From contig JADYZQ010000299.1 in assembly GCA_020853015.1 (NCBI GenBank), forward strand, positions 1-32,194: 32,194 bases of DNA, in the 5' to 3' direction. Under the pieces are notes generated by a model, which saw only the letters and a list, made by a program, of their open reading frames with translations, was not told where the DNA came from and ran no database searches. Shown piece after piece: positions 8,704-28,843 of this stretch. How positions within the stretch are numbered: position 1 is the first letter of the stretch; the number at the start of each line of letters is the position of its first letter. A program made the translations under genes and the position numbers. The DNA is from Deltaproteobacteria bacterium. GTDB lineage: Bacteria; UBA10199; DSSB01.

Positions 8704-11478
8704 TTGACCTATGGCTCGGGGGGGCCAGGCAATTTAATCTTTCCGACTTTCTTGGGAACTCGCCGAGTCTCGGCGCCGGAGACTTTTTCGGCCGAGACGC
8801 TCTTGGCCGATCTCGCCCGCGCCTGCGGCGGACGCGCGGCGCTCGCGCGCCGCGGCGGCGATGGCTTCTTGGCGGAGTGGGACGCGCTGGCGCGGGAGCA
8901 GGAGGCGCCGAGTTTTTTGGAAGGCCTGCTGGGCTTGGCGGAGCGGCAGGAGCGGGCCGGGCATCTCGAGCTGGCGGGCGAAATCTATGCGGCTGTCGTA
9001 GGGGCGAACCTGGGGCCCCGGTCGCGCCGCGAGGATGAAGCGAGTGAAGGGAGCGCCCTCCCCCATCGTGCAGGAGGGCGAACTCCAGGTTCGCCCCTAC
9101 AACAACGCGCACAACGCCGTCTCGACGCGATCCTCGGCCGCGGCGACAACCTCGCCCGCGCCGAATTCCTCGGCCGCCGCCTCGCCGCCGAGGCCTGCGA
9201 CCCGGCCGTCCTGACCGCGATGGGACTGGCGGGCCTCGCCTTCCGCACCGCGCGGCTCGCGACCCTCTCCCGGCTCGCGATCTCTCCCGCCGAAACCCTT
9301 TGGACGCGCGGCCTCGGCGCGCGCCTGCTCTCCGGCGGCGCCGGCTTCCTGCTCGAGGCCCCGACCTTCACCCTCGCCCATCGCGGGGCGGACGCCCTGC
9401 TCGGCCGCGAGGTCGACCTAAGCCGCGAGGCCCTATTTCGTGATTTTGCGAGCGGCGCCCTGACCTTGCTCAGCCTGCGCCTCGCAGGCGGCCTGAGCCA
9501 GGCGGCCCTCGGGCGCTGGGCCGCCGGCGGCGGCCTTGGGGCCCAGGCCGCGCGGACGGTCCTCCCGCAGGCGGCGATGTTTGGCGGCCTGCTGCTCAGC
9601 CATCGCCTCGAGACGCAACTAGGGCTGCGCGAGGCGCGCGGCGACGCGACCGCCGCCACCGACGCCCTGGCCGCGCTGCTCAGCTTCCAAGTCGGCGGAC
9701 GCCTCGCCCATCACGCCTTCGGCGAGACCGCGGCGGCGCGGGAGCGCGCCTTGGAAGGCCAGGTCCGCATCCTCGACGCGCTCAACTTCCGAAACCCGAC
9801 CCGAGTGGAACGCGGCTCGCTCCGGCGCGGCCTCGCCTGGGGCCCGGCGTTCGCAGCCCTGGGCGTGGGACTTCATACCTTTTTAGTCCCCGGCCGAGCC
9901 TGGGCCCAGGACCACGGCATGAACATCTTGGACCCGCTCAGCATCGAGGTGATCACCGCGCTGGTGACCCTGGCGGGAGGGGGCGCCGCCTACGGCCTCA
10001 AGCGCCTTTACGACCACTATCGCGGCGTACCCCAAGAATCCCCCGACTTTTTCAATCGCCATCGCGCCCGCATCCTCTCCGGGTTGGGCGGACCGCCGCC
10101 CGCCGACGCCCCTCTGGCGGGCGAGGCGCAACTCGTGACGGAACGATTGCGCTTCAGCCACGAGGACAACCTCTACCGGACGGTCGGCCCCGAAGAGTTA
10201 CTTGCGGCGCTTTCGGGAGCCGCTCCCAGGGATGGAGGACCGATGCGCAGCAACGCGCGCTTCGCCGTGCGCCGCAAGGGTCCGCGGGTCTTCGACATCG
10301 GCGTCGACTTGGCGAACGGCTTCTTCACCCGCATCCTCGAGTTGACGCACGCCCTCCCGCAGACCCCACTCCCGGAGCGGGCAAACGAGGACGAGACCCT
10401 CTTCCGCATCGGCCAGCACCTCGACCTGCAGCAATTCGCCGACGCCCTGCAAAAGCCGGTCTTGGCCTTGCCTATTCTGCCCGGCTCCGAATATCGCCTT
10501 GGCGTCCCGCTCTACCATTCCTCCTCCGGCTACGTCCTGCCGACCTATACCCGCGGCGTTCGCGGCATCACCGCCGAGCAGCTGCGCGCCCTCGGCACCT
10601 TGGGCGGAATCCTGAGTCCCGCGCCGGTCGAGGGGGACTCCGCCAGGCCCTTCCTCATCGAGAACGACGGGAGCGGCTACCTGGCGATGGATTGGCAGGT
10701 CGCCCGCGTCGAGACGGTGCCCAGGGCCCTGCAGGACTTGGCGCGCCGCGAGGGCATCCGCGTCAACGGCCAGCCCCTGGCCGGCGGCCGGCCGAGCCGG
10801 CCCCTGAGCAACGGGAACCGCATCCAAATGGGCGGAACGGAGCTGCTCTGGATCGCCCCCCGGCCCGGTTTCCGGCTGGCCCTGATCCGCGCGGAGGCCC
10901 CTCGGGTGGCCCCCATGGACGACGGAGCGCTCCTTGAGCGCAGCCTGAGTCGAATTCCGGGGAATATCGCCGACCTTTTATCGAACGTGGAGATCCGGAT
11001 CCCGCGCCAGTCCATCCCCACCGAGCTGCTCGAGCGCTACCGCGCGATCTACCCGTCCCCCCTCTTGCGCCTCCCCGACCTCGTCTACGAGGCGAACGAC
11101 AGAACCCGGGTGCTGCTCAGCCCGCGTCTGAAGGGAGGCGACCCGATTCCGGTCGGAACGAACCCCGGCCCCGGCGGCATCTACCTGCACGGCGCCTGGA
11201 ATCCGCAGGCCCGCCGCTATGAGATCGCCGGTCAAGACGTGGAATTCTTTCTGCTTCAGGACGGAGATACCTATCTCTTTCAGGCGGCGCCCCGCGCCGA
11301 CAACGGGGCGCCCGTGCGCCTGCTGCGGACTGAGGGCGGCACGGCCCCGCGCGAGCTCACGCTCGCACCCAAAAATAGGGTCGAGTTGCAGGACGGCGAC
11401 GTGATCGAATTCGGCCCTCTAGGCGGGCGCACCCGCCTGCACTGGTTCCGCAACCTCGACGCCCCGGGGAGGACTTAG
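8704..11478 (+). CDS. Family 1 large protein, copy 1 (unknown function)
   Basis: I do not recognise a named family. This 924-residue protein shares its N-terminal 340 residues with the next two genes: a helical region ending in EIYAAV (about 95-103), a variable linker, DAILGRG near 141, and a block with AMGLAGLAFRTARLATLSRL and LPQAAMFGG. The linker is coded by a palindromic element (8995-9103) and is about 40 residues, against about 22 in copy 2. Residues 377-397 and 414-435 are hydrophobic and could form a membrane hairpin. The C-terminal half is beta-rich, with FHA-like pieces: IRVNGQPLAGG near 685 and VELQDGDVIEFGPLGG near 895. A canonical SRxH core is not visible, so FHA is only a possibility. 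There is no signal peptide. Copy 2 starts 2 bp after its stop, so the two are cotranscribed. Confidence 0.82.
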   Translation: MTYGSGGPGNLIFPTFLGTRRVSAPETFSAETLLADLARACGGRAALARRGGDGFLAEWDALAREQEAPSFLEGLLGLAERQERAGHLELAGEIYAAVVGANLGPRSRREDEASEGSALPHRAGGRTPGSPLQQRAQRRLDAILGRGDNLARAEFLGRRLAAEACDPAVLTAMGLAGLAFRTARLATLSRLAISPAETLWTRGLGARLLSGGAGFLLEAPTFTLAHRGADALLGREVDLSREALFRDFASGALTLLSLRLAGGLSQAALGRWAAGGGLGAQAARTVLPQAAMFGGLLLSHRLETQLGLREARGDATAATDALAALLSFQVGGRLAHHAFGETAAARERALEGQVRILDALNFRNPTRVERGSLRRGLAWGPAFAALGVGLHTFLVPGRAWAQDHGMNILDPLSIEVITALVTLAGGGAAYGLKRLYDHYRGVPQESPDFFNRHRARILSGLGGPPPADAPLAGEAQLVTERLRFSHEDNLYRTVGPEELLAALSGAAPRDGGPMRSNARFAVRRKGPRVFDIGVDLANGFFTRILELTHALPQTPLPERANEDETLFRIGQHLDLQQFADALQKPVLALPILPGSEYRLGVPLYHSSSGYVLPTYTRGVRGITAEQLRALGTLGGILSPAPVEGDSARPFLIENDGSGYLAMDWQVARVETVPRALQDLARREGIRVNGQPLAGGRPSRPLSNGNRIQMGGTELLWIAPRPGFRLALIRAEAPRVAPMDDGALLERSLSRIPGNIADLLSNVEIRIPRQSIPTELLERYRAIYPSPLLRLPDLVYEANDRTRVLLSPRLKGGDPIPVGTNPGPGGIYLHGAWNPQARRYEIAGQDVEFFLLQDGDTYLFQAAPRADNGAPVRLLRTEGGTAPRELTLAPKNRVELQDGDVIEFGPLGGRTRLHWFRNLDAPGRT
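8995..9103. repeat. Palindromic element inside copy 1 coding sequence
   Basis: The left arm GTAGGGGCGAACCTGG (8998-9013) is the exact reverse complement of the right arm at 9085-9100. Allowing one mismatch, the arms extend to 19 bp (8995-9013 and 9085-9103). The 71-bp interior holds smaller nested stems, for example CGCCCTCC (9054-9061) with GGAGGGCG (9073-9080), and GGGCGAAC (9076-9083) with GTTCGCCC (9089-9096). The element is translated without a stop and makes up the linker between two conserved blocks. It looks like a REP- or MITE-like unit tolerated in frame. Confidence 0.8.
11466..11473 (+). promoter_or_regulatory. Ribosome binding site for a GTG start
   Basis: GGGGAGGA, seven bases before the GTG at 11481, lies within the end of copy 1. 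It supports the GTG start and translational coupling. Confidence 0.7.
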
Positions 11479-11480
11479 CC

Positions 11481-14400
11481 GTGGAACGCCTGCAACCCAA
11501 CGGCGCCTGGGCCGGAATCCTGGACTCCTCGGCAAGGCGGGAACTGGAATCCCTGACGCGGGAGACCGACGATTGTCTCTACCTCGAGGGGCTACTCACC
11601 TTGGCGCAGCGGGAGGAGCGCGCGGGAAGGGTCGATGTCGCGGCCGAGTTGTATGCCGCCGTTGCGCAAGAGACGGGCGCCGCTGGGGCCCTTCGCGAAC
11701 GGCCTCTACAGGACCGCGCGCGAGGCGCCCTTGACGCGATCCTGGGCCGCGGCGCCGCCGCCCCCCGCGCCGAATTCCTCCTGCGCGGCCTCGCCCAGCA
11801 GGCCAGCGACCCCGCCGCGATCTTCGCCATGGGGGTCGCGGGCAGCGTCTTTCGCATGACGCGTCTGGCGGCCTTGAGCCGCTTGGCGTCGACGCCGGAC
11901 ACGAATTTTTTGACGCGCGGTCTCGGGGCCCGGCTCTCCGCGGGCGCCCTGGGCTTCCTGGCCGAGGCCCCGGCCTTCACTGCTGCCTCGCGGCTCGGCC
12001 ACGCGGCCTTGGGCCGCGAGCAGGACTGGAGCCCGGGGGCGATCGGCCGGGAATTCGCCGGCGGCGCCTTGACCCTCTTGGGCCTCAAGGCCTTCGGGGG
12101 CTTCAGCGGCCTAGCGCTGCGGCGCTACGCGCAAGACCCCGGCCTCTCCGCGGGGCTGCTGCGCACGCTCCTGCCCCAGGCCGCGATGCTGGCCGGCATC
12201 CTCGCGAGCCATCGCCTCGAGGCCCGGCTGGGCCTGCGGGAACACCACGACGGCGCGACCGAATTCACCGACGCCTTCGCGACGCTCTTGCAATTCCACG
12301 CCGGCGGCCGCCTGGCCCACCAGGCCTTCGGCGAGGCCCAGGCCCGCGGCGACCGCCTGATCGATGCGCGCGGCGAGGCGCTGCTCTCCGTCCCTCGCCT
12401 CGAGGCTTTGGCGCCGCGCCTCCCCCGCCTCGTCACGGCCGGGGGGCCGGGGGACCTCCCCAACACCGTCTTCGCCATGGCCGCAGGTCCGGGCGGCGCC
12501 CGCGGCCGGCGCGCCGCGACCGCGCAGCTCCCGCTCCCCTACGAGACGGGCCTGAGCGCCCCGCGCGGGCGGGCGCTTCCACCGGGGCTGCCCTTGGAGT
12601 TTCGCCTCGCCGAAGGGGCAAGGGGCGCCGACGCGGCCCTCCTCCGCTCCTCGCTGGCCTATCTGACCCGGCAGGGACATCCCCTCAGCCGCGCCGAGCA
12701 AATCGTCTGGATCCGCGAGCACCGACTCGCCGGCGGCATCCCGCTCTTGGGCGAATGGTTCCGCCAAAACGGTTCCGAGTCGGCCGCCGCGCTGGCCGCG
12801 TTGCGCGCCTTCGGCGCGAGCCACCGCGCCGAGGTGATCGCCGAACTGCGGACGGCCTTAAGCCACCCTCATTTGCTCGTCGTGGCCCCGGCCCTCGAGG
12901 GCCTGGTCGCGCTCCGGGCAGTCGAGACCCTGCCGGAGCTGCGCGCCTTGAGCGCCGCCTACCCGGCGCCGGTCGCGATGCTCGCCGAAACCGCGCGTGT
13001 GGAATTGGGCGACGCCGAGATGGTTCCCGTCCTACGACCCCGCGCCTTCACCTGGCAGCCCTCCGCCTTGGACCGCATCTCGGCCCTCGAGGCCCTGGGC
13101 CGACTCGGCCAAGTGGAAGAGGCCCTCCCCGAGCTGCGGGGTTTCTTCCGTTACAGCCGGACCGTTTATTTCCGAGCCGGCCTGGCCCTGACCCGCCTGC
13201 GCAGCGAGGCGGCCATCCCCAACCCCGCCGCGATGCGCGAGGCCGCCTCCCTCGCGGAGCGGGCCGATTGGGCGGAGGCCTACGCCGCCAGCGGGCGTCC
13301 TGGACGTGCCGTCGCGCTGTGGCGCTCCTTGCTCGTCTCGAACGACCGCGCCGTCCAAGAGCGGGCCATCTCCCGCCTCGGCCCCGGCGAGGCCGCCGCG
13401 TTGCTCCCCGAGCTGGAGCGCCTGCGGACCGAATCGCCTCACTCGGAGATCCGGCGGGGGGCGGCGGAGCTGTGGATCGCCTCGGCCCGGGCGCGGGGGG
13501 ATCGCGAGGCCCTCGAAACCTTCTTTTTGACAACCGAACCCGCCTCGATCCAGGCCACCGAGCGCCTGCAGGTCGAGGCGGCTCGCGCCCGGTTAGAGTT
13601 GGGCGCGAGTCTGGAGGCGAGCGAGCGGCTGGAGGCCTATTTGGAGAGCCGCTTCCCCGCCGTCCGGCTGCGCACCGCCGAGGCCCTCTTGGCAGGCGGG
13701 GAACACGAAGGCGCCCGTCGCGCCCTCGAGGCCCTGTGGGAAGACGGAAGTTTCGAGATCCGGCACCGTGCCTTCGCCGTCTGGTCGCGCAGCCGCGCGC
13801 CGCGCCCGGCCGCGAACTCCGGTCCAAGCGGCGGCTTGATCGCCCTGCTCGCAGCGGGCTCGGGCTTGGGCCTGCTCTTCCATCCCTCCCTGGCCGAGGC
13901 CTCGGTCGGGATGGGCTCGGGCGGTGGCGCCGACCTCCCGTGGCTGCTCGCCGGAATGGGCAGCCTGCTCGCGGGCGGCGTCGCGATGGTGGTGCAAGCC
14001 AATCCAGGCGAGGGCGCGCGGCGCGGCTCCGACCGACCGCCCCACGCCGGTCTGCTGGGCTGGTTCGAAAATCCGAATTTTTCCGAAGAGCGCTACTTCC
14101 TCGCCCCGCCGCCCGAGGCCGTGCCGGAGAACCAGCGCTTCCTAACGCCGCCCGCCGAGGGCCAAGTCCTGGCGCTGGGCCGCGCCAGTCGGGCGGCGGA
14201 AAATCTTTTTCCCGATCACCTGCGCCACATCTCGCGGCGCCACCTGGACCTGCGGGTCGTCGCGGGGAAGGTGGAGGTGCGGGCCCACGACGGCTCGCGG
14301 GGCCTGCGCATCAACGGCCGCAACCTGGCGCCCTTCCAATGGTACGAGCTGCGCGACCGGGACACGGTCGAATTCGTGGCCGAGGCCGGGCGCGACGTCT

Positions 14401-15908
14401 TCGGGACCGAGCCCAGCGCGGAGGAGCCGGGGGAATTCGTCACGGTCACCCGCCGCCTCGGCCGTAACCCCGTCGAGGAGCGGGACGCGCCCGCGATCTT
14501 CGTCTTCCGCCTGCCGCGGCCCCCCCAGACTCCGGTCCCGCCGCGGCCGCGGCGCAACCTGCTGGAGCAGGTCCAAGGCCTCTTCGGCTCGCGCCCCGCG
14601 ACGCCCGAACCCGCCGAGGAACCGCGGCGCGACAGCACGCCCGTCGCCGCCTTCCGCGACCCGGAAGAGATCTTTTCCGAAATTCAGCGCTTCTCCAATA
14701 CCCTCAGCACGCCCATGCCCCTCTTGGAGATGAGCTTAAGCCAGCCCGATTGGCTGGACCCGCACGAGCAGCGCGGCGCCGCGGCGCGGACGGACACCTT
14801 GCGGTCCCTCCTGCGAATCCACCGTCAGATCTGCGGCAAGGAGGAGCATTGGGTGCCCGTCGCGACGCCGGCCGCGGGCCTGACGCGCCCCTCCTTCCAG
14901 TCGCTGCGCATGCCGCGCTGGGACGGCGTCCTGCGCCAGCGCCTCGAGACTTATCGCCAAGGCCTGGAGCGGCTGCGGCAGGAGCGGGGGGATTTTCCGT
15001 TCTACACCGTCGCCCTCCAAGAACTGAACGCGATCGGCGACCGGCTCAACCGGCTCTTCGAGATCGTCCAGCTCTTCCGCCGCCACTTCACGGCGCCGGA
15101 GGATCTGGCGCAATTCGACGCCATCGAGGCCGCCTACCGGGGACTGAGGTCGGAGGTGGCGGGCGACGGTCAGCGCGTGCGCACCACCACGCGCGGCATC
15201 GACGTCACCGTCCGGCGACGGCAGCGCCAAGGCTGGGCGGAAGAGTTCGCGGGCTTCGCCAGCGGCTCGCGGGCGATGGTGAACATGCGGATCCTGATGG
15301 GCGACATCCGCGAGGTCCAAGGACTGCCCGTCGCCGGCTCGCTGTACAGCGCCCTGGCCAGCGGCACCGTCTACGACAACAAGGAGGAGCGCCTCGTCCG
15401 CAACGTCCGCGTCCTCTTCGAGGCCGGCAACGGCCAGATCGTCGCCTTCGACGACGGAAGTCCCGCCGTCCGCAACGTGACGCAGCGACACCGCGATCAG
15501 GGCCGCCGAATCGAAGAGGCCATGCTTTCCGTCGACGCCCGCGCCACCGGCCGCATTACCTCGGTGGCGGTCTTGGGCGAGGCCCGCGACTCCGTCGTCC
15601 AGGCCCTGGAGGGCCTGCGCGGGCTCCGCGTCCTCCCGCCGCAAATCGTCTACGGCTTCACGGGGTTCGCCGGAGAGGCGGAGGTGCGGGCCTACCGCGT
15701 CGACTTGGTCCCCGACGTCGACGCCGCGCCGGAGCAATGGTACCGGGTCGCCGGCCTGGTGCGGAACCTCCGCGAGGGCTACAGCCTGCTCACCCTCGAG
15801 GCCAACACCCCCGAGCTGGGGATGCCCGGCCTGCAACTCTGGGTCCCCAACATGGAGGTCCTCGACCTGGCCGTCGGCGACCCCGTCACCGCCCTCCCCG
15901 AATCTTGA
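11481..15908 (+). CDS. Family 1 large protein, copy 2, with HEAT-like repeats and an FHA domain
   Basis: A 1475-residue protein of unknown role. The N-terminal ~300 residues match copies 1 and 3 (AELYAAV, ALDAILGRG, AMGVAGSVFRMTRLAALSRL). Residues of about 395-775 form leucine- and alanine-rich helical pairs resembling HEAT or TPR-like repeats. Residues of about 784-803 and 817-838 are hydrophobic and may form a membrane hairpin. Residues of about 893-975 form a good FHA domain, a phosphothreonine-peptide reader: LGR, then HISRRHLDL, then GLRINGRNL and LRDRDTVEF in the expected order. A proline-rich linker and a ~400-residue C-terminal region follow, with a coiled-coil-like stretch (about 1145-1235) and a basic segment VTVRRRQRQGW. 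FHA suggests phosphorylation-dependent assembly, but no kinase gene is in the window. It starts with GTG. Confidence 0.85.
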   Translation: MERLQPNGAWAGILDSSARRELESLTRETDDCLYLEGLLTLAQREERAGRVDVAAELYAAVAQETGAAGALRERPLQDRARGALDAILGRGAAAPRAEFLLRGLAQQASDPAAIFAMGVAGSVFRMTRLAALSRLASTPDTNFLTRGLGARLSAGALGFLAEAPAFTAASRLGHAALGREQDWSPGAIGREFAGGALTLLGLKAFGGFSGLALRRYAQDPGLSAGLLRTLLPQAAMLAGILASHRLEARLGLREHHDGATEFTDAFATLLQFHAGGRLAHQAFGEAQARGDRLIDARGEALLSVPRLEALAPRLPRLVTAGGPGDLPNTVFAMAAGPGGARGRRAATAQLPLPYETGLSAPRGRALPPGLPLEFRLAEGARGADAALLRSSLAYLTRQGHPLSRAEQIVWIREHRLAGGIPLLGEWFRQNGSESAAALAALRAFGASHRAEVIAELRTALSHPHLLVVAPALEGLVALRAVETLPELRALSAAYPAPVAMLAETARVELGDAEMVPVLRPRAFTWQPSALDRISALEALGRLGQVEEALPELRGFFRYSRTVYFRAGLALTRLRSEAAIPNPAAMREAASLAERADWAEAYAASGRPGRAVALWRSLLVSNDRAVQERAISRLGPGEAAALLPELERLRTESPHSEIRRGAAELWIASARARGDREALETFFLTTEPASIQATERLQVEAARARLELGASLEASERLEAYLESRFPAVRLRTAEALLAGGEHEGARRALEALWEDGSFEIRHRAFAVWSRSRAPRPAANSGPSGGLIALLAAGSGLGLLFHPSLAEASVGMGSGGGADLPWLLAGMGSLLAGGVAMVVQANPGEGARRGSDRPPHAGLLGWFENPNFSEERYFLAPPPEAVPENQRFLTPPAEGQVLALGRASRAAENLFPDHLRHISRRHLDLRVVAGKVEVRAHDGSRGLRINGRNLAPFQWYELRDRDTVEFVAEAGRDVFGTEPSAEEPGEFVTVTRRLGRNPVEERDAPAIFVFRLPRPPQTPVPPRPRRNLLEQVQGLFGSRPATPEPAEEPRRDSTPVAAFRDPEEIFSEIQRFSNTLSTPMPLLEMSLSQPDWLDPHEQRGAAARTDTLRSLLRIHRQICGKEEHWVPVATPAAGLTRPSFQSLRMPRWDGVLRQRLETYRQGLERLRQERGDFPFYTVALQELNAIGDRLNRLFEIVQLFRRHFTAPEDLAQFDAIEAAYRGLRSEVAGDGQRVRTTTRGIDVTVRRRQRQGWAEEFAGFASGSRAMVNMRILMGDIREVQGLPVAGSLYSALASGTVYDNKEERLVRNVRVLFEAGNGQIVAFDDGSPAVRNVTQRHRDQGRRIEEAMLSVDARATGRITSVAVLGEARDSVVQALEGLRGLRVLPPQIVYGFTGFAGEAEVRAYRVDLVPDVDAAPEQWYRVAGLVRNLREGYSLLTLEANTPELGMPGLQLWVPNMEVLDLAVGDPVTALPES
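11682..11711. repeat. Decayed palindromic element in the copy 2 linker
   Basis: This 30-base stretch differs at only 4 positions from the perfect palindrome at 16755-16782 plus its next two bases. It is read in the same frame, giving GALRERPLQ here and GALREGPLQ there. It lies at the same linker as the element of copy 1, between AELYAAV and DAILGRG. The inverted symmetry is partly lost, as expected for an old insertion. Confidence 0.65.
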
Positions 15909-16016: not shown

Positions 16017-18320
16017 ATGAACTGGGGAGACACGGCCGGGATCCGCATCGGATCGAGGCCTCGCCGGGACAAGCAGACTTATGCTTTCGACGACCCGCAA
16101 GGCGGCTGGGCGCGGCTGCGCGACTTGCCTTGGAGTCCCGCGCAGGCCCGCGAGCTGGAGGCGCTGGGGCGGGAGACCGATCCGGAAATCTTTTATCGCG
16201 ACTTGATGAATTTCGGGCGACGCCTGGAGGCGGCGCAGCCGGAGCTGGCGGCGGAATTATATTCGGCGGTCTTGCAAGAGACACCCGCTGTGGGGGCCGT
16301 TCCCCCTTTAACGGGGGACAAGCGCGAACGGACCCTCGCACAAGAGGGCCTCGATGCGATCCTCGGCCGCGGCGCCCTCGGCCCCCGCGCCGAAGTCCTG
16401 CTGCGGCGCCTGACGCGGGAGGCCCTCGAGCCCAGCACCCTCTTCGCCATGGGCGCGGCCGGGGCGGTCTATCGCATGACGCGCCTCACGACGCTGCGCG
16501 GCCTGCTGCAATTGCCGCCCGGTCTCCTGACGCGCGGCCCCGGCCTTAAGGGCGCGGCGGCGCTGGCGGGTTTCGCCCTGGAGGCGCCGGCCTTCGCGCT
16601 CGGCGCCAAGCTGGGCGGGGCGGCCTTGGGGCGGGGGCAGGATTGGCGCGGCGAGACCTTCGGCCGGGAGGTCGCGTCGAGTTATCTGGTCTTGGGGGGA
16701 TTAAAGTTGGCGGGATGGGGAGGCAGCGCCGCGAACCGTAGGTTTGTCGCCCCCGTAGGGGCCCTTCGCGAAGGGCCCCTACAGATGTTGTTCCAGCAGG
16801 GCGCCCTCTTGACCGGCATCCAACTCGGTCATGCCTTGGAAGAACGCCTCGGCCTGCGGCCGCGCCTCGACGGGGCGACGACGCTCGTCGATTCCCTCGC
16901 CCTCCTCTTGCAATTCCATGTCGCCGGCGCCCTCAGTCGTCCCCTCTTCGGAAAGTCCTTCGACGCCTGGCAACGGGGCCTCGACCTGCAGGCCGAGCTC
17001 TCCGGCCCTCCCGTCAAGTCCGCCTTAAGCCCGCGCCTCGCCTGGGCCCTGCCGCTCGAGCCCCAAGTACGCGCCCGCGAGTTGAACATCCTCATGGAGG
17101 GCGAGCAGGGCGGCCGGCCCTCGCCGCCCATCGTCCGCGGCCGCCGCGGCAGCGACCCGCCCCCCGACGAGGGCGTGATCGGTCGGGACGCGCAGCGCTG
17201 GGGCGCCGCGCAAGGGCGCGACGCGCAATCCATTCGCCTGGTCGCCCTCTTGGCCGCCCGGCTGCGCGTCGAGCTGTGGAACGCCCTCAACCTGCGCATC
17301 GAGGGTCAGGTCGCCGCGGCCATCGCGCGGCGGCGGGAGCTCTTGGTCCGCCTCCTGCCGGTCGACGGCTCTCTGGAAAACTACGCCCTGGAATTGCACC
17401 CGAGAAGCCGGCTGGGCCCGCAGAGCGATCCCAACGAGGTGCGCTTCCGGTTGAATACCGCCGACGGCTCGCTGCGACTCCAGGACTACCTGCCCAACGC
17501 GGTCTGGGAGCTGCGCCGCCAGCAGGCTGGCCTCCCGCCGGTCGCCGGCTTCCTCCCCTTTTACCGATCAATCCAAGGCTTCGCGAGCGAGGGCCTAAGG
17601 GCCGAGCCCCTGCTCGACACCCTGCCCCCCGCCGCCAAGGAATACGTCTTGCTGGAGCCGACCCGCGAGCTGCGGCCACCCGGTCCCCTCCCCGCCGAGC
17701 CTGCCCCCGTCAACCAAGCGCCGGCCGAGCCCAACAAGTCGACGATCACCGGTCCCACCCTCCTGGTCGCCTATTTTCCCCGGATCATGGCGGGGGCCCG
17801 AGAGAGCGTCGACCGCTACTTGGACGAGATGATGATCCGGGGGGAAAAGGAGCGCAAACGCCTCCACGGCCTCACCCAGCACATCCTACTCACCCTCCAC
17901 CAGAGGGAGGTCGAAGACCCGGAGATCGGGAGCGTCAGCAACCTGCAGATTTGGATTCGCCCCTCCCCCCAAGGACAGGGGAGGCGGAGCGTCGAGGTCC
18001 TAAGCCCGATGGAGGCCCTATTGAAAAACCAAGAACAGCCCTATGGGCCGGAGGACATTTTATTGATTCTGAGCCGAAATCCGGGCTATTTGGGCACAGA
18101 AGTACCCACCCTGGAACATCAATACCTCCGCCACAACCGAAAGAACCCCCGCATCCCCGCCGGCGAGGATCTGGAGTTTCAGCGCGACCTTGGCCTGGGC
18201 GACCAGCTGCGCTTTCGGATGACGGTCCACGACCTGAGCCTGAGGCCCCCCGACCTCGCCAGCTGGCAGCGCTGGATGGAAGCGCACGTCCGCGGGGCCA
18301 AACCCCCCGACCTGCCTTAG
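16017..18320 (+). CDS. Family 1 large protein, copy 3 (unknown function)
   Basis: This is the shortest copy at 767 residues. It shares the N-terminal block with copies 1 and 2: RETDPEIF, AELYSAV, LDAILGRG, AMGAAGAVYRMTRLTTLRGL, and a region near 260-315 with LLQFHVAGALSRPLFG. It lacks the putative membrane hairpin and the clear FHA domain of copy 2. Residues of about 355-430 are charged and arginine-rich. The rest mixes helical and beta segments, with an apparent C-terminal beta domain (IPAGEDLEFQRDLGLGDQLRFRM). Two palindromic elements lie in its coding sequence: one at the linker shared with its paralogues, and a perfect 28-bp palindrome at 16755-16782 coding for VGALREGPLQ. The start at 16017 is the first usable ATG that covers the region aligned with copy 2. 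Function unknown. Confidence 0.8.
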   Translation: MNWGDTAGIRIGSRPRRDKQTYAFDDPQGGWARLRDLPWSPAQARELEALGRETDPEIFYRDLMNFGRRLEAAQPELAAELYSAVLQETPAVGAVPPLTGDKRERTLAQEGLDAILGRGALGPRAEVLLRRLTREALEPSTLFAMGAAGAVYRMTRLTTLRGLLQLPPGLLTRGPGLKGAAALAGFALEAPAFALGAKLGGAALGRGQDWRGETFGREVASSYLVLGGLKLAGWGGSAANRRFVAPVGALREGPLQMLFQQGALLTGIQLGHALEERLGLRPRLDGATTLVDSLALLLQFHVAGALSRPLFGKSFDAWQRGLDLQAELSGPPVKSALSPRLAWALPLEPQVRARELNILMEGEQGGRPSPPIVRGRRGSDPPPDEGVIGRDAQRWGAAQGRDAQSIRLVALLAARLRVELWNALNLRIEGQVAAAIARRRELLVRLLPVDGSLENYALELHPRSRLGPQSDPNEVRFRLNTADGSLRLQDYLPNAVWELRRQQAGLPPVAGFLPFYRSIQGFASEGLRAEPLLDTLPPAAKEYVLLEPTRELRPPGPLPAEPAPVNQAPAEPNKSTITGPTLLVAYFPRIMAGARESVDRYLDEMMIRGEKERKRLHGLTQHILLTLHQREVEDPEIGSVSNLQIWIRPSPQGQGRRSVEVLSPMEALLKNQEQPYGPEDILLILSRNPGYLGTEVPTLEHQYLRHNRKNPRIPAGEDLEFQRDLGLGDQLRFRMTVHDLSLRPPDLASWQRWMEAHVRGAKPPDLP
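16292..16335. repeat. Nested palindromic element in the copy 3 linker
   Basis: The outer arms GGGGGCCGTTC (16292-16302) and GAACGGACCC (16326-16335) pair with one mismatch. Inside them, TCCCCC (16301-16306) pairs with GGGGGA (16313-16318) around TTTAAC. The element occupies the same linker as those in copies 1 and 2 and is translated in frame. The inner hairpin looks like a second repeat type lodged within the first. Confidence 0.5.
16755..16782. repeat. Perfect 28-bp palindrome in copy 3 coding sequence
   Basis: The 14-bp arm GTAGGGGCCCTTCG (16755-16768) is followed immediately by its exact reverse complement (16769-16782). It codes for part of a loop that differs in sequence from the matching region of copies 1 and 2. 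Its first seven bases, GTAGGGG, match the arm ends of the element at 8995-9103. Perfect symmetry in a coding region suggests a recent insertion or active maintenance. Confidence 0.85.
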
Positions 18321-18557
18321 TTAGTGGATCGGCGGTTTCCAATTGCCGCGGTGCGTGAAGGTAAAACCTTAGAATCCCTAGAGAATTTGGTTGTCTTCCG
18401 GGGCAACTTCCCCTAGGAAGCCCCGATAAATTAGGTAGGGAACCTGCCGGGGCACAGCGGTTAAAAGAGGGTAGCCGCCTAAAAATCATGAAATCATGAC
18501 GCATTTCGCATGGGGCACGCCATCGCGAAGGGCCATTGGGTCGAGAGGGGTCTCGGC
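18321..18557 (+). other. Structured intergenic leader before Family 2
   Basis: A 237-bp gap, less GC-rich than its neighbours. It can fold into three consecutive hairpins. The first is CTTCCGGGG (18395-18403) with CCCC and GGAAG (18410-18413, 18416-18420). The second is GCCCCG (18420-18425) with CGGGGC (18448-18453), enclosing AGGT/ACCT. The third is GCGG (18457-18460) with CCGC (18475-18478). A tandem octamer AAATCATG lies at 18483-18498. No T-run follows any hairpin, so I do not call a terminator. It probably carries the Family 2 promoter and an RNA leader, but it matches no riboswitch I know. Confidence 0.4.
18543..18550 (+). promoter_or_regulatory. Ribosome binding site deciding the Family 2 copy A start
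   Basis: GAGAGGGG lies seven bases before the ATG at 18558. This favours 18558 over the ATG at 18510. Copy C also begins MTP followed by the CxxCHG motif, in agreement. Confidence 0.65.
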
Positions 18558-21182: not shown

Positions 21183-24070
21183 CCCCGCCGATCACGATCG
21201 ATCTTTCGCCCGGCCGCCTCGAATGCGGCGGCTGCGACGAGGCCTGGACCCCGCCGCGCGCCGAAGTCCGGACCGAACCTCCGACCTGCCGCTCCGCGCC
21301 GGTCGCGGCACCGCCGCTCATCCTGTTGACGCCGCCGAGCTTCCGGCTCCCGCCGCTCTTCTCGCGGCCCGTCTCGGAGATCCTGCGCCCCAATCCCTTC
21401 CGGCTCGACACCTCCCTGCTGCGGGCGGGAGAAGCGCGCGAGGCGACGCCCCCGCGGCGGCTGAGCCTGGTGGACTTCCTCCCCGCGATCGCCTCCCTGG
21501 CCGACCACATCCAGGCCTTGGATCTGGACTTCTTCAACGTCTCGGTGAACGGGGGCAGCAATCTCGAGCGCTATTCCGAATACACCCCGCGCGGGGAGCG
21601 CCCCGCCGCGCCCAACCTGGTGGTGCGCAGCAACACGCGGGCGCGGATCCACGGCGAGGTGCGGCCGATCCGCGGCACCGACGAGAGCCTCATCACCCGG
21701 ATGTCGATCGACTTCGAGCCCAACGTCTGGAACGTCGTCGCCTTAAACAACCTCGAGATCGACGGCTTCTCGATCGTCGACCCGCCGACCATCCGCTACG
21801 ACCGGCGTTTCTTGAGCCGCAGCTCGGTCGACGAGATCGTCGACCGCGGCGACTTCAGCTACGAGAACCCCTTGGGCGGCAGCGGCCCGCTGACCACGCC
21901 CTTTGAAAGCGAGGCGGCCCCGCCGCCGCACCGCGATTGGATGTTCCGCTTCTCGCCGGTGCAGAGCACGGCCTTGGCCGCGCTCCAGGAGGGCGTCGCC
22001 AACGGCGACACCCTGCTGCGCTTCGGTTACGGGGCGCTGATGCTCTGGGCCTTCTTCCCGACGCTCGGGCTGACGGATGAGAGCCATTTCAGCCGGCTCG
22101 GCATCCGCTACAACACCTTCCCGCGCCGCTTGGGCGACGTCGTGCGCATCTTCAGCCCCCTCTTCGACCCCGAGCGGAATTTTGCCCTGCGGGAGGCCGC
22201 TCCCTTCATCAATCCCAACACCGAGATGATCGTCATACAGGAGGAGCTGGATTGGATGAACGCGGAGCGCGCCCGGCAGACGCCGCCGCTCCCGCCGCTG
22301 CGCGGCCTGCGCCAGGCCATCCCCCGCGACCGGGCCGAGGTGGTCCGCTTCAACGAGCACCGCCGTGGGCTTAACGCGACCCGCGTCGCGGCCGGGCTCG
22401 CCGAGCTGCCGATGATCAGCGCCAGCCGCGGGCCGGTCTTGGATTGGTTCTCGACCGCCTTGGCACGGGACCCCGCGCGGCTGGCCGCGATCCCGGACGG
22501 CGAGCTGCCCCACGTCGACTTTCGCGGGCGGCTGCGCGCCGGCACGATCCCGCTGCCGATCGGGGAGCTGAACCTCGCTGCGGGGACGGAATTGCGTGGC
22601 CGCTATTTTCTAGAACGGGTCGCCCACCCCGGGCCCGGCGAATCGACGGTGCGCCTCGCCCTGGACCTGACGATCGAGCCCCTCGAGCTGGGCCGCATGG
22701 CCTTCCGCGAGCGCGGGATCGCGCTGGGCGCCGACTCGCTGCACGCCAATCGGGGGGTGATCGAGCTGCGCTTCCCGGTCATGGTGGACGCCGCCTCCCC
22801 GGCGCCGCCCTTCGGCATGAACATCCGCTTCGAGGGCCTGCGCGCGCAGCAGCTGGACCTCGACGCCGAGGAGGCCGGCCTGCACGCGGTGCTGCCTTCC
22901 GCACGGATCGCCGACCTCTCCTTCACCCGAGCGCCCGGCGGCCGCGACTGGAGCCTGGAGCTGCATTCGCTGAGCGGCGACGACATCCGCGTCGAGCACC
23001 CCGCCCTCAACCTCACGCTCGGCCACCTGGACATCCCCGAGCTGACCGTGCGCCGCGGCTATTCGGCCACCGGCGAGCCGGGCCCCCTCGTGATCCGCGG
23101 CCCGGGCTTAAGCATCGAGGGCATCCACACCGACGGACGCATCCCGATCCGCGACGGCTCTTTTCACCTGAGCGACGGCGAGATGTCGATGAACCAGGGC
23201 GCCATCACCTTTGAAGGGAACGTCGACCTGCGCGCCTCCCTGCCCAACGGCTTCAGCGAGGGACCGACCGTGTTCGGCAACTTCACGATCTCGCCCGACA
23301 TCCGCGATCTCCACGTCGACGGCCGCGCCCACTTCGAGTTTTTCCGCAACGGCTGGTCGCTGCGCCGCGCCGAGGGGGCGGCGCCGTTGAACATCGGCTT
23401 CCGCATCGCCGAGTCCTGGCTCACGCACTGCCCCGGCAGCCTGCCGGGCTTCCTCGAGTCCTTGCCCGCCGCCTCCGTCATCCAGACGCGGGTGCAGCTC
23501 GCCGAGGCCCAGGTGTCGGTCGAGGACCTCCAATCGGTGGAATACCGCCAGTTGGAGAGCGAGGCAGGGCCCCGCGGCCAGGTCCGCGAGCTGCATTCCG
23601 GCCCCATCACGGTCCACCACGTCCGCGGCGGGGGCAGCATCTGGGTGGGGCTGCCGATCTGGGGCTTCGTCCGCGGCCTCTTCCCCGACCTGGGGGGACG
23701 CGCGACGCGTCGCGAGCGGCGCCCCGACATGGGCCCGCTGGTCGCCCACCTGCCCGAGACGGTGCGCGCCCTGCTGGGCGACGGGGACTTCTTCCGCATC
23801 GGCGGGGTCGCCATCAGCCGCGAGGACTCCGGCGATTGGCGCACCCAGTTCGACGACCTGATCTTGAACATCCACGAGACCGACGGCCGCGGCCAATTCG
23901 GCGGCATCCGCGTGCCGCGCTTCGTGATGGAGGGCCGCGCGGGCGCCGACGGACGGCGCCGCACCACCTTCGAACTGGACCCGAACTACTGGGCCAACAT
24001 CTATCTCAACGACCCGGACCGCGGCGGCTCCTTCCGCTTCGTGCGCTGGCCGGTGCGGACGGGACGCTGA
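21179..24070 (+). CDS. Family 2 beta-rich protein, copy B (unknown function)
   Basis: A 963-residue protein. The N-terminal cysteine pair is C16-x-x-C19 followed by aspartate, so the histidine of copies A and C is missing. After a proline-rich segment it has the family's strand-rich N-terminal module (SNTRARIHGEV, LNNLEIDGF). Residues of about 260-300 include a hydrophobic patch (ALMLWAFFPTLGL). From about 440 on come repeated amphipathic strands with glycine and aspartate turns, such as IRFEGLRAQQLDLDAEEAGL and GAITFEGNVDLRA, the pattern most like AsmA or TamB-type proteins. The C-terminus differs from A and C: it lacks MPYDNQPW and ends on strands (FRFVRWPV). It is coupled to copy A by a 4-base overlap and precedes copy C by 20 bp. 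Confidence 0.82.
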   Translation: MTPPITIDLSPGRLECGGCDEAWTPPRAEVRTEPPTCRSAPVAAPPLILLTPPSFRLPPLFSRPVSEILRPNPFRLDTSLLRAGEAREATPPRRLSLVDFLPAIASLADHIQALDLDFFNVSVNGGSNLERYSEYTPRGERPAAPNLVVRSNTRARIHGEVRPIRGTDESLITRMSIDFEPNVWNVVALNNLEIDGFSIVDPPTIRYDRRFLSRSSVDEIVDRGDFSYENPLGGSGPLTTPFESEAAPPPHRDWMFRFSPVQSTALAALQEGVANGDTLLRFGYGALMLWAFFPTLGLTDESHFSRLGIRYNTFPRRLGDVVRIFSPLFDPERNFALREAAPFINPNTEMIVIQEELDWMNAERARQTPPLPPLRGLRQAIPRDRAEVVRFNEHRRGLNATRVAAGLAELPMISASRGPVLDWFSTALARDPARLAAIPDGELPHVDFRGRLRAGTIPLPIGELNLAAGTELRGRYFLERVAHPGPGESTVRLALDLTIEPLELGRMAFRERGIALGADSLHANRGVIELRFPVMVDAASPAPPFGMNIRFEGLRAQQLDLDAEEAGLHAVLPSARIADLSFTRAPGGRDWSLELHSLSGDDIRVEHPALNLTLGHLDIPELTVRRGYSATGEPGPLVIRGPGLSIEGIHTDGRIPIRDGSFHLSDGEMSMNQGAITFEGNVDLRASLPNGFSEGPTVFGNFTISPDIRDLHVDGRAHFEFFRNGWSLRRAEGAAPLNIGFRIAESWLTHCPGSLPGFLESLPAASVIQTRVQLAEAQVSVEDLQSVEYRQLESEAGPRGQVRELHSGPITVHHVRGGGSIWVGLPIWGFVRGLFPDLGGRATRRERRPDMGPLVAHLPETVRALLGDGDFFRIGGVAISREDSGDWRTQFDDLILNIHETDGRGQFGGIRVPRFVMEGRAGADGRRRTTFELDPNYWANIYLNDPDRGGSFRFVRWPVRTGR

Positions 24071-24090: not shown

Positions 24091-26958
24091 ATGACCCCCT
24101 GCAATAATTGCCACGGCGGCGAGGGCACGCGACCCAGCCGAAACGAATTGGAATGGCTGACGCGCGAGCCGGCGCTGGGACCCGAGGGCGGCCGCAACGG
24201 CTCCGATGCGACCGCGACGGTCCCGCCCGACATCGACTGCCCCGCCCGCCCGCACTGGCCCGAGCGCCTCGCCCGCGACCGCGATCTACTGCCCGCCTTC
24301 TCTTGGTGGGTGCGGGAAAATTACCGCGAGACCTTGAGGGCCGCCCGACCGGGTGTGCGGCCTTATTTCGTCGACGTCCGGGACGCCTCCCTGGGGCTGA
24401 GCCTAGGCCTGCGCAACTTCACCTACAACGGTTCGCGGCGGGAGGATTTCCATTCCTGGAGCACTTACACCACCGACGTCCACGCGGCGCCGGGCGGGCG
24501 CCTGGAGCTTCGCCTCGAGGCGGAGGGTAACGAGCTCCCCTTGGAGCGCGGCCTGCTGGCACTGCACGGCGTCTCGGTCGACGGGCCGTATTTCGTCAAC
24601 CTCTCCGGGATCTCGCGCCAGGCCATCTTCGAATCCGACGGCGACCTCTGTCTCCTGCCCCAATCCCTGCTCGCCGACCCGCGGCACGGACTGCTGGCGT
24701 CGCCCCACCCGCACTACACCGGGGGTATCGCCCTTTATCCCGAAATTTTCAATCTGGGCGGCGGCGCCGGCGTCTCGGCCAATCTCTGCCTGCCCCTGCC
24801 GACGGAATTCCGCTCGCCGGCGATCTCCGAGGCCCCTCCGCCCCGGACCTACGAGCTCAACGACCTGCTGGGCCGGATCCAAAATTATCGCGAGAATCAT
24901 CCGCCGCGGCCGCCGGGCTCGGAGTCGTGGCTGCAGCGCCTCTTCCTCGGCAGCGGGCGAAGGCTGCAAAGCCTCTTCGAATTGGTCCAGACGGGGAGCG
25001 AGTTGAACTTGGAACTCAGCGACCTCCAAGATCTCTTCCTCCCCGGGATGCTGGACCTGGGCCCTTCGCGACTGGGGCTGCGCGCCGTCGTGACGCCGGA
25101 GCGCGAGGTCGAGGCGACGCTGACTCCCCTGTCCCTCGTCTTCCAGGCGATGGGCTACGGGCGAGATCCGGACACGGAAGAGCCGCGCCTGCTTTTGGAT
25201 TCCGCGCGCCTGACGGGACCCGCGGAGGGTCCCGCCCTGCGCCTCCGCCTCGACCCCGTCGCCCGCGAGCTGCGCTCCTTGGAGGCGCAGGTCTCGCTGG
25301 AGGCCGTCGTTTCCTTGCTGCGGCCGGCTTGGCGCGGCCTGGGCTTAAGCGGCAACCTCCGCTTGGCGCTCCACGACGCGGGCCGCTGGGCCTTCGGGTT
25401 GAGCGATCTTTCGGTCACGGTGCCGGAGCTCCGCCTCTCCCTCGGCGACGCCGAGGCCGGCGCGGAGCCCGCCGTCCTGAGCGGCGCCCTGCGCGGCGGC
25501 GAGACGCCCCGCGCCTTGCTGGGCGTGACGATCCCGCCGGGACTGCGCGGCGCATTCGATCCCGCCGCCGGCGAGCTGCACCTCGAGGGCAACCTGGTGT
25601 TGAGCGCCGAGCTCCGCGGCCCGCGGGGAAATTTCGAGTTGCGCGCGCCGCTGGCCTTCTTCACCACGCTTCGACTCGGCGCCGGGGGGCCCGCGCCGAT
25701 CCCCGGCAGCACGGCGCTTTCCATCGAAGGCCTGGAGCTGATCGACGCCTCGAGCCGCCGCGAGCTCTTCCGCGACGGGGAGCTGTTTTTCAGCGACGAC
25801 CCCGACCAAGACATTTTCCGCGAAGGCCGCGTCCTCGAGGGCTTCTCGCTTAACGACGCGACGCTCGCGCGGCATCGCAGCCTCCCCGCGACGGTCGAAT
25901 TGCGCGGCGTCTGGGAAAACCACCACCGGGTCGACCTCCGCGGCCACCTCCCGCTGCCGCTGCGCGACGCCGAGCCCCGCGCCTACGATTTCTCCGCCCT
26001 CCTCGAGGACGCCGCCGAGCTGCACCTGGACCTCTTCGACCTTAACCCGGCTCCCGCGCCGGGCGGGGCCCGCGCGCCGGCCTTCAACCTGATCGGCGGC
26101 GTCCTGCGCGCCCAACGCTTCGCCGAGGCGGACGGTCGAACGCTGTGGGACTTTCGGCTCGAAGGCGAGGCGTTTAGCCTCGGGCGCCGGGGCGGCTTGG
26201 TCTACTTGCGGCAGCCGCGGCTGGAGGCCGAGCTGGACCGTCTCGAGCTCCAGGCCGGCAACCTCCTGGTCCGCATCCCGCTTCTGGACCTTCGGGCGAA
26301 CGAGCGCGGCAGCCCCGCCGGCCGGCTGCGGGGACCGATCCACGTCCACCTGAACGGCACGGAGCGCGGCGGCCTCGAAGTGGAACTGGACTCGGAGCGC
26401 CGCCCCACGGCGCTCCGCAACCTCGACCTGGCCTTCAACCTGCAAGGCCTCGACGTCCTGCCCCCGCGGCTACGGCGCAACCTGCCGGGCGGCGCCCGTT
26501 TCGTCGGCCTGGACGGCCACCTCGAAGGAAATTTCCGCATGAATTATCCCGAGGACCCGCGGCACTGGAACGGCCGCGGCGCGCTGCGGCTGCGCGGCGA
26601 CCGGGACGGGGACGTCTACTTGCTGGATTCCAGGCTGCGCCGCGTCGGGCCGCCGCTGATCCGGGACACCCGCTGGCGCTGGGACCGCGTCGACGGCGTC
26701 GACCGGCGACGCGGCTATGCCCTGGGGGATTTCCACTTGGAGCTGCTGCTCAACCCGATGCCGCTTCTGGGATCGGTCGAAGCTGCCTCGCGCGGCTTGG
26801 AGGTCGCCTTCGGCGGCGACGGGCGGCGGCTGCGTCCCGGCGAGATCTGGGCCGAGATGCCCTACGACAACCAGCCCTGGACGCCCCGGGGCTTTCGCAA
26901 CCGCATCGTCGACTACCTCGAGGCCCTCTGTCGCCAAAGCCCGGGCTGCCGGCCTTAG
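24091..26958 (+). CDS. Family 2 beta-rich protein, copy C (unknown function)
   Basis: A 955-residue protein, closest to copy A. It starts MTPCNNCHGGEGT, with the CxxCHG motif at residues 4-9 and no signal peptide. The tryptophan-rich helix (WWVRENYRETL), DLFLPGMLDLGPSR near 312-327, RLRGDRDGDVYL near 832, RDTRWRW, YALGDFHL and the C-terminal MPYDNQPW (924), GFRNRIVDYL and CRQ-x3-C all match copy A. The bulk is a long series of amphipathic strands (LRLRLDPVARELRSLEAQVSL-like stretches). It is the last gene of the tandem run; the VWA gene starts 85 bp later. The conserved N- and C-terminal motifs suggest contact surfaces common to A and C, with B the divergent partner. The role is unknown. Confidence 0.82.
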   Translation: MTPCNNCHGGEGTRPSRNELEWLTREPALGPEGGRNGSDATATVPPDIDCPARPHWPERLARDRDLLPAFSWWVRENYRETLRAARPGVRPYFVDVRDASLGLSLGLRNFTYNGSRREDFHSWSTYTTDVHAAPGGRLELRLEAEGNELPLERGLLALHGVSVDGPYFVNLSGISRQAIFESDGDLCLLPQSLLADPRHGLLASPHPHYTGGIALYPEIFNLGGGAGVSANLCLPLPTEFRSPAISEAPPPRTYELNDLLGRIQNYRENHPPRPPGSESWLQRLFLGSGRRLQSLFELVQTGSELNLELSDLQDLFLPGMLDLGPSRLGLRAVVTPEREVEATLTPLSLVFQAMGYGRDPDTEEPRLLLDSARLTGPAEGPALRLRLDPVARELRSLEAQVSLEAVVSLLRPAWRGLGLSGNLRLALHDAGRWAFGLSDLSVTVPELRLSLGDAEAGAEPAVLSGALRGGETPRALLGVTIPPGLRGAFDPAAGELHLEGNLVLSAELRGPRGNFELRAPLAFFTTLRLGAGGPAPIPGSTALSIEGLELIDASSRRELFRDGELFFSDDPDQDIFREGRVLEGFSLNDATLARHRSLPATVELRGVWENHHRVDLRGHLPLPLRDAEPRAYDFSALLEDAAELHLDLFDLNPAPAPGGARAPAFNLIGGVLRAQRFAEADGRTLWDFRLEGEAFSLGRRGGLVYLRQPRLEAELDRLELQAGNLLVRIPLLDLRANERGSPAGRLRGPIHVHLNGTERGGLEVELDSERRPTALRNLDLAFNLQGLDVLPPRLRRNLPGGARFVGLDGHLEGNFRMNYPEDPRHWNGRGALRLRGDRDGDVYLLDSRLRRVGPPLIRDTRWRWDRVDGVDRRRGYALGDFHLELLLNPMPLLGSVEAASRGLEVAFGGDGRRLRPGEIWAEMPYDNQPWTPRGFRNRIVDYLEALCRQSPGCRP

Positions 26959-27029
26959 TCTTCGCCCACAAAGCGCTGGCCTTCGCCTTAAATCCTCGCT
27001 AGATTCCCCGGTCACGAGACATCCCGAAA

Positions 27030-27037
27030 GGGGGGGG
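27030..27037 (+). promoter_or_regulatory. Ribosome binding site deciding the VWA gene start
   Basis: A run of eight G preceded by AAA ends six bases before the ATG at 27044, which begins a good signal peptide. Longer readings from 26717 would overlap copy C. No clear promoter is visible in the 85-bp gap; TAGATT at 27000-27005 is at most a weak -10 box. Confidence 0.6.
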
Positions 27038-27043
27038 ATTCCT

Positions 27044-28843
27044 ATGAAAAAATCCGTCATTTCCTTCTTGTCGATTTTAAGCCTGGCCCTGATGGCCGCA
27101 ACGGCCTCCGCCGCCTCCCGCATCGAGTACATCCTCGACGTCAGCGGCTCGATGAACGCCCTCTCCGGCGGCGAGAAGCGCATCGACGCCGCGAAGAAAT
27201 CCCTGACCGCGATGGTCCAGGGCATCCCCGACGGCACCATCGTCGCGCTGCGCCTCTACTCGCACCGCGTCCCCCCCGCGGACAAGGCCAAGAGCTGCCA
27301 GGACACCGAGCTGGTGATCCCCTTCGGCCCCATCAACAAGCCGCAATTCTTGGGCGTGGTCAACGCGGCGTCCCCGCTGGGCCAGACGCCCATCGCCTAT
27401 TCCCTCGAGCAGGCCGCCAACGACTTCGTGATGGGGGCCGACGAGGCCCAGACCATCATCCTGGTCAGCGACGGCGAGGAGAGCTGCGGCGGCGACCCGG
27501 TCGCGGTGGCGAAGGCCCTGATCGCGAAGGGCTTCAAGCTCAAGATCAACGTGATCGGCTTCGACGTCGACGCCAACGCCAAAAACCAGCTGGCCGCCAT
27601 CGCCGGCGCCACCGGCGGGCAGTATTTCGACGCCAAGGACTCCGCCAGCCTGACCGGCACCCTGCAGAAATTGACGCAGGAGTCGCTGGTCATCCAGAAG
27701 GCGGGCTCTTCGGTCTACGGCGAGGAGATCCGCGGCGGCGACAACTACGAGACGTCCGTCCCCATCCCGGTCGGCAAGCTCCTCCGCTTAAACCACCACC
27801 AAAAGCAGAACCAATACGACTATTTCTCCGTCGACGCGAAGCCGGGGCAGAAGATCGTCGTCTCGCTGGAGACCGGCGAGAAGGGCGTGCGCATCAATCC
27901 CGACAACACCTATGAAGAAAACCTGAATCCCTACGCCGGCGTCAGCCTGCAGAGCCCGCAAAAGACGCAGATCGCCCACCAAGAGATCATCGGCGGGAAG
28001 AACGACGCCAAGCAGATTATCTTTCCGGTGCCCACCGACGGCGGCGGCAAGTATTACGTCCTGGTCGGCTCGGCTTACGACAACCAGCACAAGGACCACC
28101 GCTTCAAGGTCGAGATCTCCGAGCTCTTCGACGCGGGCAGCAAGCAGGATGCGGGCGACACACGCGACACCGCCTTGGTGATCCAGCCGGGCACCCACAA
28201 GGGCTACGTCAATCCGAACGACGAGATCGACACCTACCGAGTCCAACTCCCCGCCGGCACCGTGACGATCCGCGTCCGGCCGGTCAGCGAAAAGGTCCAC
28301 TTAGGCCTCGAGCTCTTCGACGCGGAGGGCGTCCGCGTCGGCGGTGAAAACGCCCCCAATGCCGGGGCGGTCGCGAAGATGGAGAACCTCCCGCTCGCCA
28401 AGGCGGGCGAATACGTCCTCAAGGTCAAGGGCGGCTACAATCCTTCCGAGACGGAATACACTTTGGAAATCATTCCGGGCGGGGGCGCCGCTTCCGCCGC
28501 GGACGCGGGCGCCCCGCCGGCCGCACCCGCGGCCCCCACGACGCCGACAGCCCCGGCGGCCCCGACCGGCGGCGAGACCGTCTACAATCCTTTGTCCAAG
28601 CCCGTCCCCATGCCGCGGGCCGGCACCGGGGCGCTCACCCCCGACTACCAGGGCATCGCCCAGCTTTGGAAGCAGATGGACTGGAAGCAGAAGGCGAAGG
28701 TCGTCGGCTTCTGGACGCTGCTGCCGGCCTTCTTCGGCTGGCTGGTCGGCTGGATTTGGGGCTACTTCAAGGGCCGCGCCAGCGGAAAGCGCTGGGCGGC
28801 GCGGCAGGCCGCGAAGCAGAATACCGCCCCGCCGGCAGGCTGA
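27044..28843 (+). CDS. Secreted, membrane-anchored VWA-domain protein
   Basis: A 599-residue exported protein. It has a Sec signal peptide (MKKS, a hydrophobic core, and a likely cut after ASA at 23). A von Willebrand factor A domain follows at about 25-215 with a full metal-ion-dependent adhesion site: D32-x-S34-x-S36, T115 and D143. Residues of about 225-365 and 370-480 look like two beta-sandwich domains; the second resembles pre-peptidase C-terminal domains (DTYRVQLPAGTVTIRVRP). A proline- and alanine-rich linker follows. Near the C-terminus comes a hydrophobic helix (FWTLLPAFFGWLVGWIWGYF) and a basic tail, so the bulk should face the periplasm. VWA domains bind proteins through a divalent metal. 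Its position after Family 2 makes a shared function possible but unproven. Confidence 0.9.
   Translation: MKKSVISFLSILSLALMAATASAASRIEYILDVSGSMNALSGGEKRIDAAKKSLTAMVQGIPDGTIVALRLYSHRVPPADKAKSCQDTELVIPFGPINKPQFLGVVNAASPLGQTPIAYSLEQAANDFVMGADEAQTIILVSDGEESCGGDPVAVAKALIAKGFKLKINVIGFDVDANAKNQLAAIAGATGGQYFDAKDSASLTGTLQKLTQESLVIQKAGSSVYGEEIRGGDNYETSVPIPVGKLLRLNHHQKQNQYDYFSVDAKPGQKIVVSLETGEKGVRINPDNTYEENLNPYAGVSLQSPQKTQIAHQEIIGGKNDAKQIIFPVPTDGGGKYYVLVGSAYDNQHKDHRFKVEISELFDAGSKQDAGDTRDTALVIQPGTHKGYVNPNDEIDTYRVQLPAGTVTIRVRPVSEKVHLGLELFDAEGVRVGGENAPNAGAVAKMENLPLAKAGEYVLKVKGGYNPSETEYTLEIIPGGGAASAADAGAPPAAPAAPTTPTAPAAPTGGETVYNPLSKPVPMPRAGTGALTPDYQGIAQLWKQMDWKQKAKVVGFWTLLPAFFGWLVGWIWGYFKGRASGKRWAARQAAKQNTAPPAG

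Follow-up and report, generated by a model that had tools for sequence, protein, structure and literature searches.

A helical N-terminal module fused to many unrelated proteins and a pair of large, predicted beta-rich protein families meet at one locus of an uncultured Deltaproteobacteria bacterium

The window analyzed here, a stretch of 32,194 nucleotides, is contig C299 of a 2.73-Mb MAG of 349 contigs that is 81% complete (G000). The same genes are present in the "Deltaproteobacteria bacterium" MAGs of two relatives, JAJFLL01 and JAIOPF01 (Lac Pavin). Seven large open reading frames (ORFs), all co-oriented, lie where the initial annotation had placed them, namely three F1 genes, two copies of F2 on either side of G2, and a gene for a VWA protein (Table 1). 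The junctions of 2 bp, -4 bp (an overlap) and 20 bp were also given correctly, and the remaining ones in the block measure 108 bp and approximately 190 to 240 bp. For the first F2 copy, a start at 18558 (874 aa) is better than one at 18510 (890 aa). The VWA domain scored above the Pfam gathering threshold (PF00092, E 7.5e-9). We searched the window for RNA and tRNA genes and found none. On the 3' side of the VWA gene, two small adjoining ORFs (28921-29461) resemble, on reading, a Phd/RelE-type toxin-antitoxin pair. A large ORF on the minus strand (29468-31573) has a C terminus that looks FHA-like; it had no Pfam match and no homolog among the subset of loci compared.

Table 1. Features of the locus, in window positions; segments within proteins are given in residues.
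Feature	Position	Strand	Description
MBOAT acyltransferase-like neighbor	7253..8491	+	not at the syntenic G004 locus
F1a	8704..11478	+	924 aa; shared N-terminal module at residues ~57-346; FHA-like segment at ~676-710
F1b	11481..15908	+	1475 aa; shared module at residues ~20-288
F1b shared module as modelled	11484..12419	+	ten helices; the start resembles TPR and is followed by five long helices
F1b C-terminal part			HEAT-like repeats at ~431-493; weak FHA/YscD-like segment at ~894-952
F1c	16017..18320	+	767 aa; shared module at residues ~45-319; C terminus without known domain
F2, first copy	18558..21182	+	874 aa; start MTPPCANCHG; 4-bp overlap with G2
G2	21179..24070	+	963 aa; starts MTPP; partner of F2, separate family; giant amphipathic beta-protein
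F2, second copy	24091..26958	+	955 aa; start MTPCNNCHG; the model is antiparallel beta almost throughout
VWA protein	27044..28843	+	599 aa; signal-like N terminus, PPC-like stretch, C-terminal hydrophobic segment

The locus had been described as two triplicated gene families. For the first, this holds for the N-terminal domain of approximately 280 to 285 residues, which is common to all three genes (57% and 42% identity of the other two to the first), but not for the C-terminal parts, which align poorly and carry different domains. The FHA-like and HEAT-like segments proposed earlier were indeed found in these C termini, the FHA match of F1a scoring 21.1 bits against a gathering threshold of 20.7, with the second half of the profile alone aligned. 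The second family does not have three members. Its outer two genes are homologous over their full length (42% identity), but the middle gene is not detectably related to them: G2 showed no BLASTP similarity to either F2 (E 0.25-0.5), and a profile-profile comparison was not convincing either (HHalign probability 8.5%). A three-member family was thus ruled out, and G2 was treated as a separate family.

The F1b module was modelled with AF2 at a pLDDT of 91.6 as an all-alpha domain. Foldseek comparison of the model with the PDB returned no hit at E<0.001, nor any below E 0.5. The module belongs to no Pfam or NCBIfam family, and a PDB profile search gave no useful match. Three of 64 module members matched TPR_14 (best E 0.022), and no tandem TPR scored above the Pfam threshold. 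No signal peptide was seen in the F1 sequences inspected. A membrane domain was not supported either, hydropathy above 1.6 occurring within the domain in just 10 of 61 proteins.

Describing F1 as a tandem triplication overlooks approximately 70 copies genome-wide, all but three of which lie away from the window locus. A one-sequence query matched 65 times in the genome of origin and a profile of 64 members 71 times; because such counts include fragments at contig ends, the numbers of F1 proteins are somewhat lower than those of matches. The 61 F1 proteins called in this genome amount to 55,027 aa, approximately 6% of the assembly. With the profile, four relatives of the same genus or family yielded 87, 67, 94 and 41 matches, and a broad profile gave nine in a sister-family genome (G007; E<=1e-4). 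Elsewhere in the phylum (46 genomes of a single class, which would fit UBA10199 of GTDB), two matches were found in G012 and one in G019. None was found in two incomplete genomes of the same family (G005 and G006), in the remaining genomes of the phylum or in approximately 340 relatives outside it, and a weak match in G015 was not reproduced with the broader profile. Overall, F1 was found in 8 of 385 relatives, and within the set of genomes searched it is confined to one phylum. We also considered whether viruses or plasmids had spread it, and no relative was present among viral contigs or plasmids. A further family occurs beside F1 genes (L111:3-2443, L144:3-3267 and L146:3-971); at its start it is similar to the final part of the divergent F1 domains found in G012, and it probably represents more distant F1 copies.

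We then compared the two halves of the F1 proteins. In the genome of origin, 54 near-full N-domains form one BLASTP component, and 57 C termini make up 43 groups, of which 37 have a single member. Pfam identified a multidomain acetyl-CoA carboxylase, a ketoacyl synthase, a methyltransferase with an aminotransferase, a PLP-dependent enzyme, an amidase, a metallo-beta-lactamase fold, a Ser/Thr kinase and PAS histidine kinases, together with sigma-70 regions joined to an amine-oxidase-like part, a DEAD helicase with sigma region 4, and HTH, FHA and TPR domains. About 40 of 58 C termini had no Pfam match, so that the label of enzymes and regulators covers a minority of F1 proteins. The active sites of the partners inspected appear mostly intact, given the presence of the biotin AMKM, the kinase HRDLKPDN/DFG, the ketoacyl synthase Cys-His-His, the amidase motifs and the PLP lysine. 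A fused kinase of the sister-family genome lacks a standard HRD, and some partners therefore need not be active; in the amidase protein (L106) the module was matched in its first part only, which makes this fusion less certain. The sister family also carries the module on PutA, on a histidine-kinase ATPase and on an STPK+FGE protein. Two loci illustrate these arrangements: at L112:3-6431 (G000:C129) an F1 module is followed by an acetyl-CoA carboxylase of the eukaryotic multidomain type, and at L123:8416-13554 (G007:C15) a module precedes a PutA-like proline dehydrogenase/aldehyde dehydrogenase.

We next compared the F1 proteins with those of G004, a genome of a second genus. A counterpart among 46 sampled G004 F1 proteins was found for 31 of the 57 C termini. 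Twelve pairs with similar C termini included three strongly supported ortholog cherries in the N-domain tree, indicating that at least some fusions predate the genus split. In 10 of the 12 pairs the N-domains were nearer to paralogs in their own genome than to their C-terminal orthologs, which had suggested concerted evolution of the N-domains. This was not supported, given the three ortholog cherries, the lack of grouping by genome and the longer G004 branches.

One module is thus joined to many unrelated C termini, and several of these joins predate the separation of the two genera. From this architecture we infer a recruitment function. The module, which is conserved, soluble and all-alpha, would serve for docking or targeting and gather dozens of cytoplasmic activities at a single partner or site, and the C terminus of each protein would contribute its own independent activity as an enzyme, a regulator or a scaffold. 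Neither a binding partner of the module nor its place in the cell was found. It could instead be a mere oligomerization or regulatory domain of TPR-like type that multiplied through duplication and fusion, each protein acting by itself and sharing neither a partner nor a destination with the others. The TPR-like start of the domain fits such an origin, as do the many copies that lie in tandem clusters and could have arisen by duplication; no constant neighbor gene was found around the other F1 genes. Nevertheless, the fused enzymes, unrelated as they are, remain largely intact, several fusions are of early origin, and the entire 285-aa module is retained with its long-helix bundle, suggesting a specific shared role; we regard oligomerization or regulation as unlikely, though a serious contender.

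F2 adjoins G2 in at least seven genomes, with gaps from -4 to approximately 220 bp and a frequent 4-bp overlap. Such loci occur in G000 (two), G001, G003, G004 (two), G006, G007 (two) and G010 (two pairs in tandem). The last is an F2-G2-F2-G2 array (L185:2284-13498, G010:C46); its genome belongs to another family of the class, and F1 was not found there. Beta-amphipathicity, measured as the 170-degree moment, reached z 3.5-5.5 for F2 and G2 and was not seen in the other window proteins tested. The AF2 model of F2 is nearly all beta (confidence 71.5, the first 70 residues being of low confidence) and had no PDB match in Foldseek; Pfam and PDB profile searches with F2 gave nothing. G2 had a single weak hit in the PDB profile search (4qrk, E 0.025) and no Pfam match. 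A literature search of incomplete coverage retrieved no description of the F1 module or of the F2 and G2 families. The suggestion that the families were undescribed therefore stood, the F1 domain lacking a Pfam, NCBIfam, PDB or fold match and F2 a Pfam or PDB match.

F2 and G2 are encoded as a closely linked pair and probably form, as its two subunits, a single extended beta-sheet assembly, which would have a hydrophobic face and perhaps a groove handling lipids or beta-proteins, AsmA-type in action. As the F2 model is of moderate confidence and had no PDB match, the groove function is a guess. A different reading of this pair, which competes with the F2-G2 half of our proposal only, starts from its N termini. 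Both proteins start with MTPP (window 18558 and 21179), and F2 keeps C-x-N-C-H followed by C-[SP]-A-x-x-x-W-P as far as a different order, its variants carrying the CxxCH heme motif as MTPPCANCHG, CNNCHG, CSNCHG or PCVNCHPS. F2 and G2 might then be exported by a route marked by MTPP, F2 with a c-type heme, to form an extracytoplasmic redox or envelope complex. The long conservation of the motif argues for this, as do MTPP starts on outer-membrane beta-barrel-like proteins without signal peptides. However, the F2 ORFs have no upstream signal sequence for periplasmic export, the ligand of CxxCH may be zinc, and MTPP also begins cytoplasmic-looking proteins such as a kinase, which leaves the heme-bearing complex improbable.

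The F1 proteins could also be delivered effectors, with an N-terminal export domain and polymorphic C termini acting on other cells. A conserved N terminus with very diverse C termini does recall polymorphic effector systems (PMC3482391), but acetyl-CoA carboxylase, a sigma factor and PutA would be odd effectors, signal peptides were not seen and no gene family recurs next to F1. Delivery to other cells is highly improbable on these grounds.

We also examined whether F1 and F2-G2 belong together. The order F1b-F1c-F2-G2 is kept in the second genus (G004:C12), beside the same PriA-Def-Fmt-Rpe-GlpK genes, and the contig ends of G001 agree with it. The F1b C terminus is 42% identical to its G004 ortholog over 1125 aa, and F1c is 32% identical to its own over 392 aa. 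Across genomes the families are mostly apart, and this locus, shared by two genera, is the one place where they adjoin: F2-G2 lies without F1 between an STPK gene and a RecO-like region, named by eye, in G000:C344, G001:C25 and G004:C59, and it is present in G006 and G010, where F1 was not found. Co-location in two genera makes local cooperation possible, yet for neither family is this the usual case. A VWA ortholog follows F2 in just one other genome among the loci read, G002 from the same genus, and MBOAT is in none; both are missing from the syntenic G004 locus. The VWA protein is thus an accessory and MBOAT a neighbor, neither being a conserved member. The initial annotation had assigned FHA, HEAT, VWA and MBOAT parts to one assembly and had itself held that independent occurrence of the families would speak against it; this is what we found, and its proposal is largely refuted. 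A machine of F1, F2 and VWA was likewise rejected as a rule. A single envelope-spanning assembly of the seven genes retains a very slim chance, through their co-orientation, short junctions and conserved order and a correlation of F1 with G2 over the phylum (6 genomes with both, and 2, 2 and 36 in the other classes; p 8e-5, uncorrected for shared ancestry), set against families that mostly occur apart and a VWA and MBOAT that are not conserved. We favor instead the meeting at this locus of two separate lineage-specific systems, an F1 recruitment module and the F2-G2 pair, and give this reading about an even chance.

The MTPP start recurs beyond F2 and G2. Among 967 starts preceded by a Shine-Dalgarno sequence in the fetched loci, a sample enriched for these loci, MTPP occurred 14 times, orthologs or likely spurious ORFs included, and the next tripeptide 5 times. 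Whole-genome counts of GAGG-N3..9-ATGACNCCNCC were 19 in G000, 20 in G001, 8 in G002 and 9 in G004, against 0-2 elsewhere, and a control MTAA pattern gave 0-4 (MTPP in G000 versus outgroups of unmatched base composition, p 5e-4). The carriers, named by eye, are mostly unrelated and include EF-hand-like, kinase and beta-barrel-like proteins and FHA-like giants. In the genomes where F1 has expanded, MTPP starts are enriched, which is a lead toward a tag and no proof of one. One may go further and imagine a hitherto undescribed tagging scheme for a large share of the proteins of this lineage, in which the 285-residue helical module directs approximately 40 to 90 enzymes and regulators of each genome toward a single site inside the cell and MTPP marks a second set, F2-G2 included, for another; we consider this rather doubtful.

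In one small genome, a domain of unmatched fold sits on dozens of unrelated enzymes and regulators that seem mostly intact. Such an arrangement would point to an undescribed way of organizing the bacterial cytoplasm or of jointly controlling many activities. F2-G2 and the MTPP start are two more undescribed features of the same uncultured lineage.

Cellulosome dockerins place one type of docking module on a wide range of enzymes. Like these and other scaffold-docking modules, F1 is shared by diverse enzymes; it differs in size, in fold and in its apparently cytoplasmic setting, and no cohesin-like partner was found. In type IX secretion of Bacteroidota, a single sorting domain is likewise carried by many otherwise unrelated proteins of a genome (PMC12618676, PMC5445135), but there it is C-terminal and accompanied by a Sec signal, whereas the F1 module is N-terminal and all-alpha, with no signal peptide seen. 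The effector-associated domains of bacterial conflict systems are adaptors on diverse partners in multi-paralog sets, as F1 would be (PMC7159879); F1 differs in that its partners include metabolic enzymes. F2 and G2 resemble AsmA-like beta-groove proteins (TamB, YhdP and YdbH) in being very long, amphipathic and beta-rich (PMC8593681, PMC11014939). The window and its relatives gave no AsmA, TamB or YhdP Pfam hit, F2 had no Foldseek match, and the F2 N terminus has no hydrophobic segment in place of the inner-membrane helix of AsmA-like proteins, so that the likeness is one of build only and extends to neither sequence nor membrane anchor. The F1 module and the F2-G2 pair are real, and both are undescribed.
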